From Actinernus sp. WN-2022 (Eukaryota > Cnidaria > Anthozoa > Actiniaria > Actinernidae): 64,000 nt of DNA. Positions 55,512 to 64,000 of this stretch are shown piece by piece. The translations under genes were made by a program, and so were the position numbers. Where the stretch lies: contig JAOWCC010000936.1 of NCBI GenBank assembly GCA_030867875.1, forward strand, positions 74,681,032 through 74,745,031. Reading direction: 5' to 3'. Numbering within the stretch: position 1 is the first letter of the stretch; every line of letters begins with the position of its first letter. The notes under the pieces were generated by a model. It was given only the letters and a program-made list of their open reading frames with translations, was not told where the DNA came from and did no database searches.

Positions 55512-56042
55512 TTGGTAGCCCACCGCCGCTGTAATAACATAAGTGACATTTTAGTAAGAGCTCAGTTACCTAACAATACTAACACCTCTCCACTGCCACC
55601 CGGCTCTTATCGCTGCGGTAAAAACTGCATTACCTGCCCTTACATCGAACATGGCCTCAAACAATACACTTTTTCCTCCACTGGCGAAACTCACCATATC
55701 AAATCTCACATTACATGTAATACTAAAAACGTAATTTACATGGTTCAATGTCACTACTGTAATTCACAATACATCGGAGAAACAAAACGATGCCTCAAAG
55801 ACCGTTTTAACGAACACAGACGACCTGTAGATAAATCCAATATCAAATCTAAACCTACAGCCGTTTCTGAACATTTTCTCAGCCCTAACCATTCTAGTAC
55901 TGACATGCTCCTTATTCCTTTAGAAGTCATCTATTCTAAACGCGATTCCATGAGAAAAGCACGTGAATCATATCTCATCTCATATATTTCCGCTCATAGT
56001 TACGTAATTAACAATTTATATAAGCCTTGTATCCATTTGTGA
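55512..56042 (+). pseudogene. PLE GIY-YIG endonuclease
   Basis: Contains CGKNCITCPYIE, then VIYMVQCHYCNSQYIGETKR (GIY and YIG strands with the CCHH-type cysteines upstream) and CLKDRFNEHRR with the catalytic Arg and His, to a stop at 56042. The nuclease is expected to nick the target for PLE integration. This part of the frame is clean, but it is cut from the RT by inserts at 53799-55321. Confidence 0.9.
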
Positions 56043-56953
56043 CCTCCACTGTAAACCTGAAGAAGGCTGGTACTGGCCAGCCGAAATATCGTATAAACCT
56101 CGACAAGCGTTGTATTTGATCAGCATTGCAGTAGTCTTCGGACACTTTATCATTATATATATTTTTTCACGCTGGTGAGATATTTCTCATTGTATGCAAT
56201 AACAATATCTCTTTTCATAAATCATTAGGAAGCACTGTTTGCCTCGACATTGCTGCAAACAATTACTGTTCACAAGGCTTGTCATTGTAATTTTTTTGCG
56301 GCAACCTGATTTTAAATATTGCTGGTTTTCACTCAATCCCCAGAGATTCAAATGACAAAGGGCATGGCGGCCATGTTCGTGTCCCAACAAAAGAAGCTAA
56401 CAAGGAATCTATTGTTTATTAAGGGCACCAACATGGCAGCAATGACGTCACGTGCAAACCAGGAATAGCCTGATCTGGGAACACGCTGGCTCACGAATAC
56501 GCTGGCTCACGAATACGCTGGCTCACGAATACGCTCCTGGTAATGGCTCCTGGACAAATTGGTTCCAAGAACAGGTCACGTGACCTGTTTTCTCTATTTT
56601 CGCCTTAACAGTCTATCAGAGTCAACCATTCCAAACGGAGCGTTAGAAATAACCAGAAGTGTAATCAGATAAGTAAGAAATCGTTACTTTAAAAATGCAG
56701 TGTAACCGGCCCATTTTGGGAGATTTTGTAATCCACGTAGTTGGTCACGTGATAGGCATTTTAAAACAAAATTTGTTCAAACGACTGAGATTAGTGATAA
56801 CCACTATACTTTGTTATAGTTCGCCACAAAATTTTGGCGCGCGCTCATTGGCTAAAACCAATCACGTGACGTGATAGTTGTCGTCCGCAGATGCAAACTA
56901 TCAGGCGATAGTGCCCGCTGAGCACGAAAGACAATTTTGTGTTGAACAATAAC

Positions 56954-57136
56954 GCAAATAGACTGTGTCTGTCTCGGAACTATCGACTAATAGTTTCCCT
57001 TGGAAATTTGATGTTCTTAAAACTAGCATATAAGCCCTCGAACTTCGTTCTCGGGCTTATATTTGTTTTAAGAACATCAAATTTCCGCGGGCAACTATCA
57101 GCCGATAGTTCCTCGACGGGCACACTCTATTTGTAT
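56954..57136. repeat. 183-bp palindrome
   Basis: An inner hairpin (GGAAATTTGATGTTCTTAAA at 57002, mirrored to 57086) is enclosed by outer arms with CGGAACTATCG...GATAGTT pairing. Inserted in the right part of the CTCAAGCATG MITE. Confidence 0.8.
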
Positions 57137-57287
57137 AATAGAATTCGGGTAAACATAAGCCACTCTATTCAATAAAATAGATGTAGTTTCATGCACAAAC
57201 CATGTTAACATGCTTAACGGTTGACTCAGTTCCCACAGGAGTATAATACTCCTGGTGCCATTAACAATTTTTGTGCCCAAATAACAG

Positions 57288-57503
57288 GTTTTGTGCCAGT
57301 AACGTGAACGGCCTTTACCCTGATCCTGACAACTGCAATGGGTTTATCAGCTGCTCCAATAGTTACACGTACAAGATGGCGTGCCCAGCTAACCTAAAGT
57401 TCAACCCGACTCTCAAGGTCTGTGATTGGCCGCACAATGTAGATTGCGATGACGAGGGGAGCGGTGCATTTTAGCTTGGAATGGATAGGAATTCTAACTA
57501 CAG
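57288..57503 (+). CDS. Chitin-binding type-2 (CBM14, peritrophin-A) terminal exon
   Basis: Acceptor AATAACAG ends at 57287 (entry phase 2). Product: FCASNVNGLYPDPDNC, GFISCSNSYTYKMAC, LKFNPTLKVCDWPHNVDC, with six cysteines at CBM14 spacing and the conserved YPDP, NP and CDWP residues, then DDEGSGAF and stop at 57472-57474. A GTAGGA donor at 57504 leads to a 3'UTR exon. CBM14 domains bind chitin in extracellular matrices and mucus. It is complete and undamaged, and is the last domain of a secreted protein. The signal-peptide exon at 47272 ends in phase 1, so at least one more exon would be needed between them. Confidence 0.85.
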
Positions 57504-58152
57504 GTAGGATTGAAAAAAACATTGAGAACAAAACAGGAAAATCATTGGCCTCTCGATTTTGGGGGGTCAGGTCTGAAAAAGTATAGTGTGGAAATCATTT
57601 TTTTGGTCTGAAATAGGGTCAGCATTTTGAGACCCAAGGAGCACACCCCCACACAAACTTCTTGGAATTGGTGCATGACACCTCAATAATGGTAATACGG
57701 GTTGTATTTCTGTTCTATTGGCCACTAACACATTGAAACAAGTAACTTGTAAGTTAATGAATTCTACCATGCACATCGAAATTAGTAAGTTTACCAATTT
57801 TGGGGACGTTGCCGTTGGATATTTACCCGATATGTGGTGAGCTTTTAAATGTCGCAGAAATAAGAGACGTTTGTATGGATTGGAGGGATACGCTTGTCCA
57901 GACAATGCCAATCCAATGTCCCACGTCTACTATTTTTGCGATTTTTGAAAGCTTGTTTTTCAGTTTCTATTTACCAAATAAGTCATGCTCAAACTTGGCA
58001 TTCTGACTAATTTCGATGTCGTCTTTATTTTCTTATGAAGAGGTCATTTTTTATAGACGAACTTTGAGGGTCAGCAACTCGGGCCCAGTCCTTTTTCAAT
58101 TTGACAATGGCCAATTGATCCATTGATCATCTGATTACTTTTTGTCTTTTAG

Positions 58153-58260
58153 GTTTAGATGCAAGACAGAAAACGTGCCTTGTCCGATCAGTTAGTTGAA
58201 GTTTGTGAAACATAGCAGATACTAATATAATAATAAAGAAATAAATTAATGCATAGTCCC
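58153..58260 (+). terminator. 3'UTR exon and poly(A) signals
   Basis: Acceptor TGTCTTTTAG followed by non-coding sequence and AATAAA at 58232-58237 and 58240-58245. Fits the 3' end of the transcript containing the chitin-binding exon. Confidence 0.6.
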
Positions 58261-58605
58261 AGTTTAATTATTTTTAGGCCGGGGTTGTCGATCATTTGCT
58301 GACTGAGAGGTAAAGGAGAAAAGTAAATTTAAAAAACTGAAACGCCTTAATATTTTGCCGGTGTGCTCTTCCAGAAGCCGCTGACTCGGGTGAAAACAAA
58401 TAAGATTTGTGATTTTCAGGTTGGCTGTTCTGAGTTACTCAGTCAGTGTAAGAAGGCACTTTTCACCGGGAAACTCAGATCATATTAGCGAAAATACTCC
58501 TTAAACACTAAGTTACACATAGTGATGATAATTTTCGAAGAGAGACCAAGCTACATTAAAGGGAACCTCGGCTAAAAAAACATGTTTGCTCCCAAATGTT
58601 CCTTA

Positions 58606-59000
58606 GGGACGGACCATTTGAAAATTGATGGGGGGGGGGGGGGGGTGGGGGGTACCCGGATTTTTTTTTTATGGCGTCGGACCTTGCACGATATTTTTTT
58701 AAGGCATTCAGTATTTTGGTTTTACATCAAGAACATTTTACACAATTTTAATGTTTCTAGATTTATGGTATTTTCCATGTACATTAATTACCTTTGTTTA
58801 GTAGAAAACATATATATCAGGCATGTTTTTACAAAAGGAGCCTTAGAACCTAAGACCCCCTTTTGTGAAAACATGCCTGATCTTGTGTACTTTTAGCTTT
58901 AAAAGCCAGTATTAAACTCGTTTTTTGTCTTTTTCTTGAAAGGTCAAATGACAGTTTAAGACTTTTCTGGACTTTCTATCCCATAATTTACTTGTGTGAG
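58606..59000. mobile_element. One-ended copy of GGGACGGACC Harbinger family
   Basis: Starts GGGACGGACCATTTGAAAAT after TTA (58603-58605), followed by a poly-G run and TTTTTTTT as in the copy at 40268. The opposite TIR was not found, so the right limit is approximate. Confidence 0.55.
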
Positions 59001-59447
59001 ATTATCCCATAATTTCTTTATTTGAGAGCTAGAGGTTAGGATTAGGTTAAAAAAAACGCCATTTTCTGGTATTTCTACTCAAAATACGGCGAAATTGCAT
59101 CCACTAAACTTAATCTACAGGAAAAGAACGTTGTATCGCCGTGTAGTGCATCGAAATCCATTAAAAGCTTGAGAAATGGCGCAGCAGCAGGGAGTGTGAA
59201 GCGCACTTTTTGATTGACCTTGGGAAAAATGCCCCATAATTACCACATTTTACTGCATTTTTCAGTCCATGTTCGAACCAGCAAACATAGTCAATCGCTA
59301 GTCGCCCCACCTCCCTGCTGCTATATTAATGTGTAAAGCCAACTGCCGACCCTAGCCACAGCCCTTTTTGTGACCAATTTATCGTATTTTGACACCCAAT
59401 TAGAGGAGTGATGCGCATAGAATATACGTGATAATATAACGTTGCAA
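59001..59447. other. Flank of the integrase module
   Basis: No gene. A self-complementary pair GCAGCAGCAGGGAG (59182) / CTCCCTGCTGCTATA (59310) lies here; whether it marks an element end is unknown. Confidence 0.3.
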
Positions 59448-59881
59448 TATGAAGGGTTACAATCAGTTTGCTTGGCTGACCGTTGGCCAAACAATCATTT
59501 GTGGAAAGAACTGCCGTGGAACGTATTGTGCCAGTGCCTTGCAGGTCTTGTGGAATTGGTGTTCATAGTGATATACAGTTGTGTCGAGCATGTGGCCGAG
59601 ATAAGATCCGGCATAGGCATATAGCTAAGGAGAGAATAGCAAAGCAGCAGTTCCAATTGGTGATGAGCGAGCTTCTTGTCGTAGCTAAGGAGAGAATAGC
59701 AAAGCAGCCGTCGATGGATGAGTTTCTTGCAATAGCTAAGGAGAGAAAAGCAAAGCAGCAGTTTCGATTGATGATGAGTGAGCTTCTTGTCGTAGCTAAA
59801 CGAGACCTAAGCGAGCCCAAGCAGTACGTGATAAGCGAACAAGACTTCTTTAACTTGATAAGAGATCTAACGGTAGAGTAA
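59448..59881 (+). pseudogene. Small cysteine-rich zinc-type protein with internal repeats
   Basis: From ATG 59448: YNQFAWLTVGQTIICGKNCR and GTYCAS, then a shift of frame to VPCRSCGIGVHSDIQLCRAC. Combined, this gives a C-x3-C...C plus CxxC...CxxC zinc-ribbon-like protein of about 140 aa. After it a repeated IAKERIAKQQFQLVMSELL unit occurs three times with variation, probably an alpha-helical expansion. Stop at 59879-59881, AATAAA at 59913. Function unknown. The frameshift between 59530 and 59560 could be decay or an unrecognised splice. It lies first in the module with the integrase. Confidence 0.6.
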
Positions 59882-60054
59882 TTGCTCAGCTGTAATGTGA
59901 AAGTGTTAGCCTAATAAAAATATGTAAGAATAAAAAAAAGCAAAGCTGGCGTCACCAGAATCTCTCTATATAGGAACCACTTTCACCTTTTTCCTTCCTT
60001 CGCCATTTTCGTTCCTAAAGAGGTTTTTGCTTTTTGTTTGCCGGGCCCGGCTTT

Positions 60055-60137
60055 TTCTACTGTATTTGTTCTACTGTATTTATTCTACTGTATTTATTCT
60101 ACTGTATTTGTTCTACTGTATTTATCCTACTGTATTT
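60055..60137 (+). repeat. 15-bp tandem repeat
   Basis: About six copies of TTCTACTGTATTTAT with small variation, between the zinc-type protein and the tRNA-like sequence. Confidence 0.85.
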
Positions 60138-60218
60138 GTTCAGCTTCTGCCACATCGACAGACGCGCTACGACTTGTGTGGAGCTGGAGGCTTTTTACTC
60201 CACACAAACCGGTCTACC

Positions 60219-60303
60219 ACATGTGGCTCGCCGGATTCGAACCCTGAACTCAAGAGGCCTCCATTTTCTCTTGAGCCCAGCGCTGAACCGTTAGGCCACA
60301 TGT
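60219..60303 (-). pseudogene. tRNA-Leu-like sequence (pseudogene or SINE head)
   Basis: 85 bases on the minus strand with a perfect 7-bp acceptor stem (ACATGTG/CACATGT), A-box-like TGGCCTAACGG, an anticodon arm with CTCAAGA (CAA), a long variable arm as in type-II tRNAs, and B box GGTTCGAATCC. The T stem does not pair properly and positions 8-9 are unusual, so a working tRNA is unlikely. Confidence 0.5.
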
Positions 60304-60539
60304 GCTAGACAATAACGTAGGTGTAAAAAAAAAAATGATGTCTTCCACTATGTTAATTAGCGGCTCGCTGAGACAGCTGGCAATTAGCCCGTGACACGGT
60401 TTGACGTGACTAGACAGAAATTTGCATACGAACCCGACATATTAATTAATTTATCGTAGCTTTACTACGGCTTAGCTATGGCTCTTCGCAAAGTTGAAAT
60501 AAAATCCACGCTGGCTTCTTTCGTAGGAAATATCGATTT

Positions 60540-61199
60540 TTAACCCACGAGACTGCCAAGTTTTGATCGCATCTCTTCCCGAATCTCGGCCCGAATTCGT
60601 TCCACGCTTTTTTCGCCTGTTCGTCCCGAACTAACCAAGGCTACGTGGCGAATTTCAACCCTCATAGCTTCATATTTGTCTGCTTCGGCAAGTATGAGAG
60701 TGAACTCAGAGTCAGACACTTTTTCATCACGCAAGGCTTTTGACACTAGATCACGAAGTGTGTTCACTTTTGCATTCGCCAACATAGTGGTTTTTTCATG
60801 CTTAGAAACTTTGATTCCAAGCTTTTTAGCCCCAACAGCTTTAGAGGCTGAAATTACACCACAGATCCCGCCAATAACACCAAGTGGTAGGCCAACTATG
60901 ACATCAAAGCCGGAGAGAGCAACTGCTAAGCCTCCTCCCGATAAAAGCACAGAGAGGCTACCTGTGGCCACAGCGACCCCATGAATGATTCCCTGCGCAC
61001 GGGCATACTTTTTACGCACGCCCTCGTAGTGTTTTTCTTGAGCTTCAATGCTCGCAAGCGTATCGCAGACTTTTTGCAGTCGAAAGCTCTCTCCAGAGAC
61101 GCCTGTTTCAGATGAACGGAGCTGGGGATAGACCGATGGTGCCGTTGGAATTGTTTGAATCGAATCGCTTGCTATATTGACTGGACTTGCCACTGGCAT
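60540..61199 (-). CDS. Glycine-rich two-helix membrane-type protein of the integrase module
   Basis: From ATG 61199 the product is 219 aa. N-terminal 40 residues are polar and low complexity. Residues 41-70 form a helix (LQKVCDTLASIEAQEKHY). Residues about 71-118 form a hydrophobic, glycine-rich hairpin (SVLLSGGGLAVALSG, IVGLPLGVIGGICGVISAS). A conserved-looking helical tail follows (KHEKTTMLANAKVNTLRDLV, KVSDSEFTLILAEADKYEAM). No stop or frameshift. The hairpin suggests membrane insertion, possibly a membrane-active or minor structural protein of a virus-like element; this is inference. The frame is open another 20 codons upstream (61259), overlapping the integrase 5' end on the other strand. 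Confidence 0.7.
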   Translation of the reverse strand: MPVASPVNIASDSIQTIPTAPSVYPQLRSSETGVSGESFRLQKVCDTLASIEAQEKHYEGVRKKYARAQGIIHGVAVATGSLSVLLSGGGLAVALSGFDVIVGLPLGVIGGICGVISASKAVGAKKLGIKVSKHEKTTMLANAKVNTLRDLVSKALRDEKVSDSEFTLILAEADKYEAMRVEIRHVALVSSGRTGEKSVERIRAEIREEMRSKLGSLVG

Positions 61200-61285
61200 T
61201 GGGTTCGTAGCAAAGAAGTTGGTCAAGGAGCCTATGCTTAACGATCCTTTCCACTGCAACTGGTGTCTCCGAAGATATTGCTCGG

Positions 61286-62251
61286 ATGTGGCTGGAAAAG
61301 CAAGCTATATGGCAGATCTATTTGCCTGCTCCTCGATATGTTCCACGACCTAAATTTGATGTCTCTACGCCAAACGAGGTTCATCAAGCTGAGCTGCTCT
61401 TTCTTCTACATGATCGTCCTGGACGTGGACGAAAGTTATACAAGTATGCACTCACAGTTGTTGACGTAGCATCCATGTACAAAGAAGCCGAGCCATTAGC
61501 CACTAAAGAGAGTGGAGAGGTCGCTGCGGCCTTCGAGCGAATCTACAAGCGAAGCCCATTGACGTGGCCAAAGCTGCTCCAAGTCGATCCAGGACGTGAG
61601 TTCATGGGTGCTGTTTCTCCACTGCTGGCTAAGCATGAAGTTTCTGTGAGACGTGGGCGTGTGGATATCCACAGAGATCAAGCGATTGTCGAGCGTTTTA
61701 ATCGTACACTGTCTGAGAGGCTATTTGGACACCAGTATGCTCAAGAGATGGTACTTGCTTCGCAGCAGTCGGGACGACGGTCAGTCGAGTGGGTAGCTCG
61801 TTTGCCTATGGTAGTCAAAGCTTTGAACAACGAAGTTACCCGTTTGACTGGAAAACAACCAGCGGTAGCAGTTGCTGTTCGGGACGAACAACCAAAGGAA
61901 CAATCAATCGAATCAAAGCCGGCAGAGCCTGCACACTCTGGGCGTCTCGTTGGTCTCAAAGAGCAAAGGCTTCCCTCTAGTGTCAGTGTTCGATATCTCT
62001 ACGCATCTGGTGAGCTGGAAGGTGGCCGCCGTCGTGCAACTGATCCTGTGTGGTCTTTAGGCATATACAAGCCAGGACGTGTTGTTATCAGATTGGATGG
62101 GCCAGTCCTTTACTATTTGACGACACAACAGCCAGAGATGCAACGAGTGAAAGTTGTCCCAGCGATGCAAGTGCCACTGCGTGGTTTCGTCTGCGAAGAG
62201 CTCTTCGTGGTACCCAGAGACACAAAGTTGCCGCCAGATAGTGTTCTCTAG
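61286..62251 (+). CDS. DDE integrase (rve-type) of a virus-like or Polinton-like element, intact
   Basis: 321 aa from ATG 61286. Starts MWLEKQAIWQIYLPAPRYVP, then catalytic Asp60 in ALTVVDVASMYKEAEP, Asp101 in LLQVDPGREFMG and Glu136 in HRDQAIVERFNRTL, a D-D-(34)-E arrangement of the retroviral integrase fold. A helical region follows (VKALNNEVTRLTGKQPAVAV) and a C-terminal basic beta domain with YKPGRVVIRLDGPVLYYL. It would cut and join element ends to chromosomal DNA. No gag or RT lies nearby, so it is not a retrovirus; Polinton/Maverick-type or related DNA elements carry such enzymes. No lesion in the frame. It runs divergently from the membrane protein and converges on the helicase-HNH gene, overlapping its tail. 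Confidence 0.85.
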   Translation: MWLEKQAIWQIYLPAPRYVPRPKFDVSTPNEVHQAELLFLLHDRPGRGRKLYKYALTVVDVASMYKEAEPLATKESGEVAAAFERIYKRSPLTWPKLLQVDPGREFMGAVSPLLAKHEVSVRRGRVDIHRDQAIVERFNRTLSERLFGHQYAQEMVLASQQSGRRSVEWVARLPMVVKALNNEVTRLTGKQPAVAVAVRDEQPKEQSIESKPAEPAHSGRLVGLKEQRLPSSVSVRYLYASGELEGGRRRATDPVWSLGIYKPGRVVIRLDGPVLYYLTTQQPEMQRVKVVPAMQVPLRGFVCEELFVVPRDTKLPPDSVL

Positions 62252-63319
62252 TTGTCCCAGCGATGCGAGTGTCGCCGCTCCTCTTTTTACGTTGCACTCG
62301 AAACAAGTCAGCCGGACATTGTCACAAGTGTGTCCCTTGGAGTTATCCAGCCGATCAACTGAGAACTGTTGTGGGTCTCTTGGGGCATAAATCCAAAGCA
62401 GTTCTATGTTACATGCAGCGCATTGGTTATTTTGGATTTTCTTGAGCTGTAGTATGTTATCGCCCTTTAAGTTGAATCCTTGGAATCCCTTGGCTTGATC
62501 ATTGCGCTTGTAGGCCACGAGCTTCCTACAAATGACTTTGCGGATCTGCTGTCGTTGTTGCTCTGCAACTGGTGGACGTTGTTGCTCCGCAGGACAATTG
62601 ACCCGTTCAGGCTGGTGCATATATTCCACTCTGGACACGGCGAGGTAGATGAGGTTGGACCACTCGAGGTATAGTCGTCAATGACCTACACTTTGTTTGG
62701 GTCATAGATTGTCAAACCTTGGCTGGAATGGACTGTGAGAGCGTAACCAAGGCGCCAATCAGAGTGTTCTGAAGACACAACTGCTTCTGCTGCGTTGATA
62801 GTGACACTTACGACGTCGTTGAGGACGATCGAGCTCTTCTCTCTTGTCGGTGCCTGGGATAGATACCATGACGTTTTGCTTCCGACTGTCTTTGGGGTGA
62901 TAGAGAAGAGGTACATAGATGTCTGGAAAGCAGTCCTTGTGTCGCTGGAACAAAAGCTTCTGTACTCGGTCTCGAACCTTCTGACGACTGGTCAATATCA
63001 AATCACATGGTCTCCAAACTTCGACAAACAAGCCAAGACATCCTGGTAGAGAGCGACGCATTTCCTTGGACTGGACTTTGTCGGTTTGAAGGCGGATGTG
63101 CTTTTTGAGAGCTTTGAGTTCGTCATCTTTTGCCCTGTAATCGACATCTATCTCTTCGTAGTAGTTGGCTTGTCCCTGGAGCCAATTGTGTGGCAATTCA
63201 CCTGCGATCGGAGGAGGCTGGCCATGATCCATCGCCAGAAAAACGCGACACGGCCGATTGTGCAATATCAATTTCGGCTCAGAGGTCAGCAAGCACAGTT
63301 CATATAAAATTACAAGCAA
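62240..63319 (-). pseudogene. SF1 (Pif1-like) helicase fused to HNH endonuclease, broken
   Basis: Minus strand. 63319-62840: AMDHGQPPPIAGELPHNW (motif III region), VDYRAKDDELKALKKHIRLQ and RHKDCFPDIYVPLLYHP. After a frameshift near 62840: SSIVLNDVVSVTI and WRLGYALTVHSSQGLTI (motifs V-VI). A TAG then sits where a Trp codon is expected, and a second frameshift leads to WSNLIYLAVSRVEYMHQPER, the helicase end, running straight into an HNH domain: QNNQCAACNIELLW, FSVDRLDNSKGHTCDNVRLT, CFECNVKRG (about 62440-62270). Walker A and B motifs are absent: the gene is 5'-truncated near 63310. The HNH resembles recombination-endonuclease VII types with two CxxC zinc pairs. Expected role: replication or recombination of the element. 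Its frame runs on to 62057 antisense to the integrase; I place the real end near 62240. Confidence 0.75.
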
Positions 63320-63545
63320 ACTATGGGTGGAAAACGCTTAATCTCGATTTCCCACTTTCCTGAGTACGATTTAAAAAATGTCTAACCAGGATCTCAATCT
63401 ACAATATGAATTAAATAGTTCTACCTACATTTCTATAATCAGCTCGTGAATTTTAGGTGTCGTTTTTTTTCAAACATAAACGAGTGTTTTGACTCAAATT
63501 ATTACAGAGCTAGAGTGAGAATTGGCGAGAAAAGAGCTTACTTAC
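63320..63545. other. No feature seen
   Basis: AT-rich, non-coding; junction between the helicase truncation and the candidate exon. Confidence 0.3.
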
Positions 63546-63726
63546 TGTTTATAACTTGGATTCTGAGGTGGAATATACTGTATTTTGCAAAATGTCTATA
63601 GCAGGCCTTCTGAACGAATGGTTCATCGTCGTCAGTAAATGCCATTAGAGCAGCTGTGGATTCCTTTGCGGTTTCGTTTTTGCAGTTGAATATTTCGATC
63701 TTGGATAAACCGGCAGAATATGCCAT
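63546..63726 (-). CDS. Candidate first coding exon, unknown protein
   Basis: Minus strand from ATG 63726: MAYSAGLSKIEIFNC..., then STAALMAFTDDDEPFVQKAC and HFAKYSIFHLRIQV, ending at a consensus GTAAGTAAG donor (63545 downward). Good start, even codon use and a strong donor argue for an exon. Domain not recognised. It could be the 5' exon of a host gene or of the helicase downstream on the same strand; phase could not be checked. A long open frame overlapping at 63645-63878 is its shadow or 5'UTR. Confidence 0.35.
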
Positions 63727-64000
63727 CTTTGTACGCTAAATCCTGTAAATTTGGCTGTCTTGAGACCATCATATCTCTGGCCACGAGCGTCTAAAACACC
63801 ACGAACACATACCAATGGACAACTTGTTCTCTCCTTATGAAACTGCAGTGTATTTGTAACTGACCAGCAGTTATTCAAATGAATTGTCCCTTTTTAAAAA
63901 TAGGCCCTAGCCGGACCTATAGAGAAGAGTCTGCGATACTAATTGTGGTCAGCGATATCTCCCATTCGTGCCCGTTTTGAGGCTTGAGAGACAGTAAACA
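63727..64000. other. Right edge, no feature seen
   Basis: Probably 5' leader of the exon at 63546-63726 in its first part; nothing else recognised. Confidence 0.3.

Follow-up and report, generated by a model that had tools for sequence, protein, structure and literature searches.

Does a compact cluster of four reading frames in the genome of the cnidarian Actinernus sp. WN-2022 represent a new family of mobile elements, or a remnant of a known kind? The cluster lies at positions 59448-63319 of the window, by which we mean the whole stretch of 64,000 nucleotides analyzed here (assembly GCA_030867875.1, contig JAOWCC010000936.1, positions 74681032-74745031, forward strand). An initial annotation made from the letters of this stretch had described a small CxxC protein, a membrane protein, an integrase and a helicase fused to an HNH nuclease, and had proposed them as the gene set of a distinct family. 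After searches of the 1.39 Gb genome, we conclude, with a probability of about 0.88, that a Tlr1-type polinton-like virus (PLV), resident in an animal genome, left this stretch as a decayed and internally deleted provirus or transposon copy. The initial annotation was right to see a virus-like, self-synthesising element that integrates and that fits neither an ordinary Polinton nor a Helitron. In contrast, the four genes do not define a family of their own, since the full gene set matches that of Tlr1-type PLVs in which a protein-primed family-B DNA polymerase (pPolB) is joined to an SF1 helicase and an HNH nuclease (PMC11071308).

Longer copies of the element carry capsid-type, ATPase and polymerase genes

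Two of the four proteins recur in the same genome far above chance, since the integrase has at least 126 matches with identities of 79-100% (124 scored candidates), and matches to the 219-amino-acid (aa) membrane protein were obtained throughout the best 150 scored of 4,910 candidates. In nine pairs of these two genes chosen by eye, the genes are divergent, as in the window, and lie 6.5-12.3 kb apart (a pair on C1312, 23.5 kb apart, was left out of this judgement of distance). We examined two longer copies, C635 and C696, open reading frame (ORF) by ORF, and a third, C888, by BLAST. Between the 219-aa gene and the integrase, the longer copies carry a penton-like gene, genes for a protein of ~530 aa, a membrane protein and a 433-aa capsid-type protein, a Pox_A32-type ATPase gene and further small genes. 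The ATPase was recognised by Pfam above the cut-off (E 2.4e-10 and 4.7e-10), and the conserved 433-aa and 226-aa proteins are, by position, candidates for a major and a minor capsid protein. To the right of the integrase stands one long convergent replication gene, interrupted by stop codons in C635 and C696, and to the left of the 219-aa gene stand a zinc-ribbon gene and a TFIIB-like gene. The integrase is thus flanked by packaging ATPase, capsid-type and family-B polymerase genes, surroundings that the initial annotation had itself named as speaking against a distinct family.

The integrase of locus L034 exceeds the Pfam cut-off for the rve domain (34.4 bits, cut-off 32.6), and in the PDB the integrase gave only an insignificant match, to a retroviral pol chain (E 0.78). 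For the 433-aa protein, 353 homologues were found (120 listed); one of them, P0074, gave mostly full-length matches among the best 100 scored of 4,873 candidates in the genome. No protease family, such as the Ulp1-type maturation protease of Polintons, was found in the subset of ORFs scanned with Pfam.

Genomic matches to the palm domain of the replication gene number at least 142 (140 scored of 292 candidates), and open frames run through it for up to 1,386 aa. Two split fragments being removed from each table, a palm gene lies downstream of the integrase, convergent and within 6 kb, at 76 of 124 integrase places; the other orientation was observed at none, and 48 places have no palm listed. 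In a control with positions shifted by 100 kb, no pairing was obtained (0/124). Seen from the palm, 76 of 140 places have an integrase.

The replication protein resembles Tlr1-like helicases

We aligned 19 rows of the replication protein. The Cys and His of a vOTU protease, the Asp of palm motif A, the second Asp of palm motif C and the Lys of the helicase Walker A motif are each present in 19/19, and the first Asp of motif C is found in 0/19, with ATDS, TTDS or AIDS instead. An HNH-like motif follows in 17/19 rows; one of the other two ends early and one is cut by the locus. As for the individual domains, the profile of the protein matched Pif1 helicases in the PDB at E 4e-6, and the HNH region gave a sub-threshold Pfam match to HNH and a match in the phage collection at E 1e-4, annotated in one record as a restriction endonuclease. 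From the vOTU His to palm motif A there are ~140 residues. Judged by spacing only, this space would be too small for the usual exonuclease domain of a pPolB.

These features bear on the alternative of an ordinary Polinton/Maverick as known from animals, whose pPolB would be separate and include an exonuclease domain, and beside which the helicase-HNH gene would stand by chance. Such an element would likewise carry an rve integrase, an A32-like ATPase and inverted-repeat ends with AG/CT, and the length of ~15 kb falls in the ~15-20 kb of animal Polintons. However, palm and helicase form one open frame in L047 (1,217 aa read), helicase and HNH form one frame in L034, and in the 17 aligned homologues whose C-terminus is complete all three are joined in a single protein, so that the polymerase is fused to the helicase-HNH part and, by the spacing given above, probably has no room for an exonuclease. 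Polintons duplicate 6 bp of target, whereas duplications here are mostly of 5 bp, as in the window copy, and 6 bp were observed in two of 12 terminus pairs only. Moreover, the protein lacks the first Asp of palm motif C, a feature described for Tlr1-like proteins (PMC11071308). We therefore regard an ordinary Polinton as improbable.

The Tlr1-type PLV accounts for the same features. The published Tlr1-like helicases (pPolB-S1H) consist of a vOTU domain, a protein-primed palm without the first Asp of motif C, an SF1 helicase and a C-terminal GIY-YIG or HNH nuclease, and Tlr1 itself carries an rve integrase (PMC11071308). The predicted architecture of the protein described here is that of a pPolB-S1H with a C-terminal HNH.

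In a search of 5.8 billion proteins, we found 70 homologues of the replication protein, mostly on metagenome or genome contigs; the named sources were sea slugs of the genus Elysia, a bacterial metagenome-assembled genome (MAG) and arbuscular mycorrhizal fungi. The homologue P0033 is filed under a MAG of Candidatus Thiodiazotropha, a symbiont of lucinid clams, and its presence there is likely due to host DNA. A sequence search of IMG/VR gave no relatives of the replication protein, and a search of the same database with its profile gave one weak helicase match, L073, at 27% identity. In the phage collection, 36 records had short matches, and the ten listed ones fall in the helicase or HNH part.

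Comparison with known systems

Tlr1 of Tetrahymena, as described in PMC4642659, and Tlr1-type PLVs share with the present element an rve integrase, a packaging ATPase and capsid-type genes, together with a protein that joins vOTU, palm, SF1 helicase and homing nuclease and lacks the first Asp of palm motif C (PMC11071308). They differ in that the host here is an animal, that palm motif B was not recognised and that 140 palm candidates were scored in one genome. For Tlr1, PMC12721341 gives GIY-YIG as the nuclease, in contrast to the HNH observed here. In the cryptophyte PLVs of Rhodomonas cluster C1, an HNH-helicase fusion also stands beside an rve integrase according to PMC12220804, but in those PLVs the HNH forms the N-terminal part and the helicase gene directly precedes the integrase, whereas here the HNH is C-terminal and the genes are convergent. 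The PLV of Oxyrrhis marina (OmPLV) similarly combines an SF1 helicase and a pPolB in one protein of ~1,500 aa; according to PMC12721341, however, its helicase is N-terminal, its exonuclease is complete, and it is given a tyrosine recombinase, with no rve integrase detected.

Several observations weigh against the assignment to Tlr1-type PLVs. The likeness to Tetrahymena Tlr1 is drawn from published descriptions. Palm motif B does not have its canonical form; by position it would correspond to a GKFTQG stretch, exact in 16/19 rows, and motif B is conserved in the published Tlr1-like set (PMC11071308). The 433-aa and 226-aa proteins are candidate capsid proteins only by where their genes lie, by their size and by their conservation: in the PDB, the profile built from 27 relatives of the 433-aa protein matched no capsid, Pfam gave no profile match, and the 433-aa protein had no match in the phage collection or, with its profile, in IMG/VR. 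In addition, only 76/124 integrase places and 76/140 palm places pair with each other, perhaps partly because of list limits and decay, and the first-look candidates number 4,873 for the capsid-type protein and 4,910 for the 219-aa protein versus 292 for the palm. It may be that many elements sharing this capsid module have a different replication gene or lack one, or that many are deletion copies.

PLV-like elements have been reported in animals, and two animal polintons group with a PLV group (PMC12220804); animal PLVs as such are therefore not new. PMC10120064 places the animal capsid genes of this supergroup in one separate Maverick-Polinton cluster, Cnidaria excepted. In a literature search carried out mostly without full texts, we recognised no Tlr1-type element from a mollusc or other animal genome; the descriptions of such modules that we met concern protists, their viruses and metagenomes (PMC12721341, PMC11071308, PMC4642659, PMC12220804). 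The element adds a new member to an already described kind of PLV and is present at high copy number in an animal genome. The locus itself is ordinary, being a decayed copy, whereas the animal host and the copy number give the element moderate interest. That an animal genome contains so many copies of a Tlr1-type replication module ending in an HNH bears on the kinship of animal Polintons and protist PLVs.

The compact arrangement results from deletions in one copy

The four frames are packed into 3.9 kb and overlap both divergently and convergently, and this packing is the evidence for a distinct compact family consisting of just a zinc protein, a membrane protein, an integrase and a helicase-HNH. 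We searched the genome with a 221-base query (61100-61320) covering the interval between the 219-aa gene and the integrase. The window itself was the sole match throughout among 40 scored of 1,685 candidates; the remaining 39 matches each cover a single part out of three. These parts overlap by 6 bp and 3 bp, and we deduced two deletions from this pattern. Two microhomology deletions, seen in the window copy only, joined the 219-aa gene to the integrase. At junction 1 (61170-61175, 6-bp overlap), the capsid-type, ATPase and further genes were lost; no A32-type ATPase gene was found in the window copy. At junction 2 (61247-61249, 3-bp overlap), ~0.7 kb was lost, with a 179-aa ORF and the N-terminus of the integrase. 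Together, the deletions cost this copy roughly 8-9 kb. In the best-scoring other loci, the penton-like gene adjoins the 219-aa gene in 11/11 (L022-L032) and the 179-aa ORF adjoins the integrase in 11/11 (L010-L020); these counts omit L009 and L021, which are the window itself, and include both L026 and L027, apparently the same element on duplicate contigs.

The element also extends past the window. The initial annotation had taken the 5' part of the helicase to be lost, but the gene is split at 63229 by an insertion of ~992 bp, which occupies 63230-64000 and continues to position 221 of L052, the sequence to the right of the window. The element resumes at L052:222 (window coordinate 64222) and ends at L052:4218, and both the 5' part of the helicase and the polymerase are present in L052, past the insertion. 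A second insertion of ~935 bp splits the polymerase beyond the right edge of the window. The compact four-gene look is due to deletions in one copy and to a window edge falling mid-element. With the junctions spanned by the window alone (1/40), the compact arrangement in none of the other 39 scored matches, and different neighbours in all 22 other fetched loci, a distinct compact family is very improbable. The supposed new family is thereby removed, and the case illustrates that a deletion copy and a window edge can mimic one. There is next to no chance that the window is one copy of a short non-autonomous derivative, similar to a miniature inverted-repeat transposable element, multiplied in the genome: its ends are intact and a perfect target duplication flanks another terminus pair with only 1.9 kb between its ends, but none of the other 39 of 40 scored matches has its junctions.

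The decay of the window copy is also visible in its frames. The 219-aa frame (60540-61199, minus strand), with its glycine-rich hydrophobic hairpin, belongs to a conserved protein family with 90 homologues in the protein search, a sea anemone being among the named sources. Although the frame and the hydrophobic stretch are as first described, the protein is not intact: its native start has been replaced by junction sequence and lies beyond the deletion junction, since the matches of other copies begin mostly at residues 4-11. The rve-type integrase (61286-62251, plus strand), described as an intact protein of 321 aa, proved to be a remnant. The N-terminal part found in relatives (...YYSPxGYWKGLAAIxHLA...) is absent. 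In the window, Glu (VHQAE) stands in the place of the first catalytic Asp (VHQAD), a residue that is Asp in 9/9 copies read (L010-L020, minus L012 and L016) and in L034 and L037. This remnant scored 22.7 bits against rve (E 1.2e-4), below the cut-off of 32.6.

The C-terminal part of the pPolB-SF1 helicase-HNH protein lies at 62057-63229 on the minus strand and comprises the HNH (62057-62638) and the C-terminal half of the helicase. Coding sequence for both was confirmed, but in the window their frames (62057-63319, minus strand) are split over three ORFs in two frames. With their 3' ends, the integrase and HNH frames overlap by 186-195 bp in three copies, namely the window (62057-62251), L034 (7140-7325) and L037 (6027-6215), so this convergent overlap is a real feature of the element, whereas the packing of the 219-aa gene beside the integrase is a product of deletion. 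No protein of its own can be made from the window copy any more; with both ends complete, it may still be movable in trans.

Termini, target-site duplications and activity of the element family

The inserted element of the window copy runs from 59183 to 4,218 bases past the right edge of the window, 9,036 bp in total. It is flanked by the target-site duplication GGCGC, on the left at 59178-59182 and on the right at L052:4219-4223 (window coordinate 68219-68223, outside the window). The left terminal inverted repeat (59183-59427, plus strand) begins with AGCAGCAGGG, and the right one (L052:4002-4218) is 87% identical to it. The C635 and C696 copies measure 14,980 and 15,934 bp, with inverted-repeat ends beginning AGCAGCAGGGG; in C635, these repeats are 238 bp long and 99% identical. 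Helitrons also encode a Pif1-like SF1 helicase, but they have neither inverted-repeat ends nor a target duplication. As the present element has both, a Helitron was rejected.

An exact 20-base terminal pattern gave 38 matches in the genome, and the reversed pattern, as a control, gave none. By eye, 24 of these matches form 12 inward-facing pairs and 14 are single. Eleven pairs are 13.9-22.8 kb apart and one 1.9 kb; nine of the 12 lie at 13.9-15.9 kb. A target duplication was observed as 5/5 in six pairs, 6/6 in two and 4/5 in one, and was absent from the expected place in three of the 12. At C685:123774586-123789634, the outer flanks of the pair are mutual reverse complements (ggactttctt / aagaaagtcc), with no direct duplication. 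The pair 1.9 kb apart (C640:46184-48069) has a perfect 5-bp target duplication and is a probable short non-autonomous derivative; such derivatives seem to move, given this duplication.

The 99% identical ends of one copy, the perfect target duplications and open frames as long as 1,386 aa suggest recent activity. At clearly less than even odds, we envisage an animal-resident Tlr1-type PLV lineage, with an rve integrase, a full capsid-type module and the vOTU-palm-SF1 helicase-HNH protein, that has expanded to well over 100 copies in one genome, was recently active and may still form particles. A complete element has inverted-repeat ends and encodes capsid-type proteins, a packaging ATPase and the rve integrase, together with a single large replication protein with a predicted vOTU protease, family-B palm, Pif1/RecD-like SF1 helicase and C-terminal HNH nuclease. 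Its linear double-stranded DNA would be copied by protein priming if the palm acts as a polymerase, the vOTU domain may serve in processing, and packaging and virion formation would be expected. The integrase would act on the ends, leading to insertion with a 5-bp (sometimes 6-bp) duplication, and the HNH may be a homing nuclease riding on the replication gene. The window copy inserted at GGCGC, underwent the two microhomology deletions and took in foreign insertions.

Other features of the window copy and related loci

A CxxC-bearing frame was confirmed at 59483-59881 on the plus strand; it is zinc-ribbon-like, divergent and partial, with an internal 68-bp duplication at a spacing of 111 bp. 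Pfam zinc ribbons matched it at E 0.06-0.12, below the cut-off. At the DNA level the frame is homologous to L026 (77%), and L026 itself shows a weak match (33%, E 7e-6) to the zinc-ribbon gene of a longer copy; a direct match of the window frame to that gene was not obtained at E 1e-4. The adjacent stretch, 59882-60480, is common to L022-L025, L029 and L030 and is without counterpart in L033 and L036, which carry the TFIIB-like gene in its place; this gene has no window match at E 1e-4. In L036 (5111-6073) and L033 (6295-7218), the gene combines an N-terminal CxxC ribbon with a TFIIB repeat (E 0.0044, below the cut-off) and is perhaps a virus-coded transcription factor.

A 14-bp tandem repeat occupies 60055-60141. 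Beside it, at ~60195-60312, and at L052:100-180, tRNA-like stretches were noticed by eye, which resemble tRNA-derived short repeats. ARAGORN detected no tRNA in window positions 56000-64000 nor in 20 loci (L052 was outside the scan), and despite its tRNA-like look a tRNA gene at 60195-60312 within the element was rejected.

The flanks of the element (window 58800-59182 and L052:4265-4739) contain an inverted repeat of 190 bp (90%) together with a direct one (88%), so the window element seems to be inserted within another repeat. A gene for ankyrin repeats (Ank_2, E 1.5e-13) that begins with an F-box-like part lies beside the zinc-ribbon gene in the left part of a related element (L074:677-1390). 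A chitin-binding domain (CBM_14, E 3.7e-17) was observed nearby, which fits an animal.

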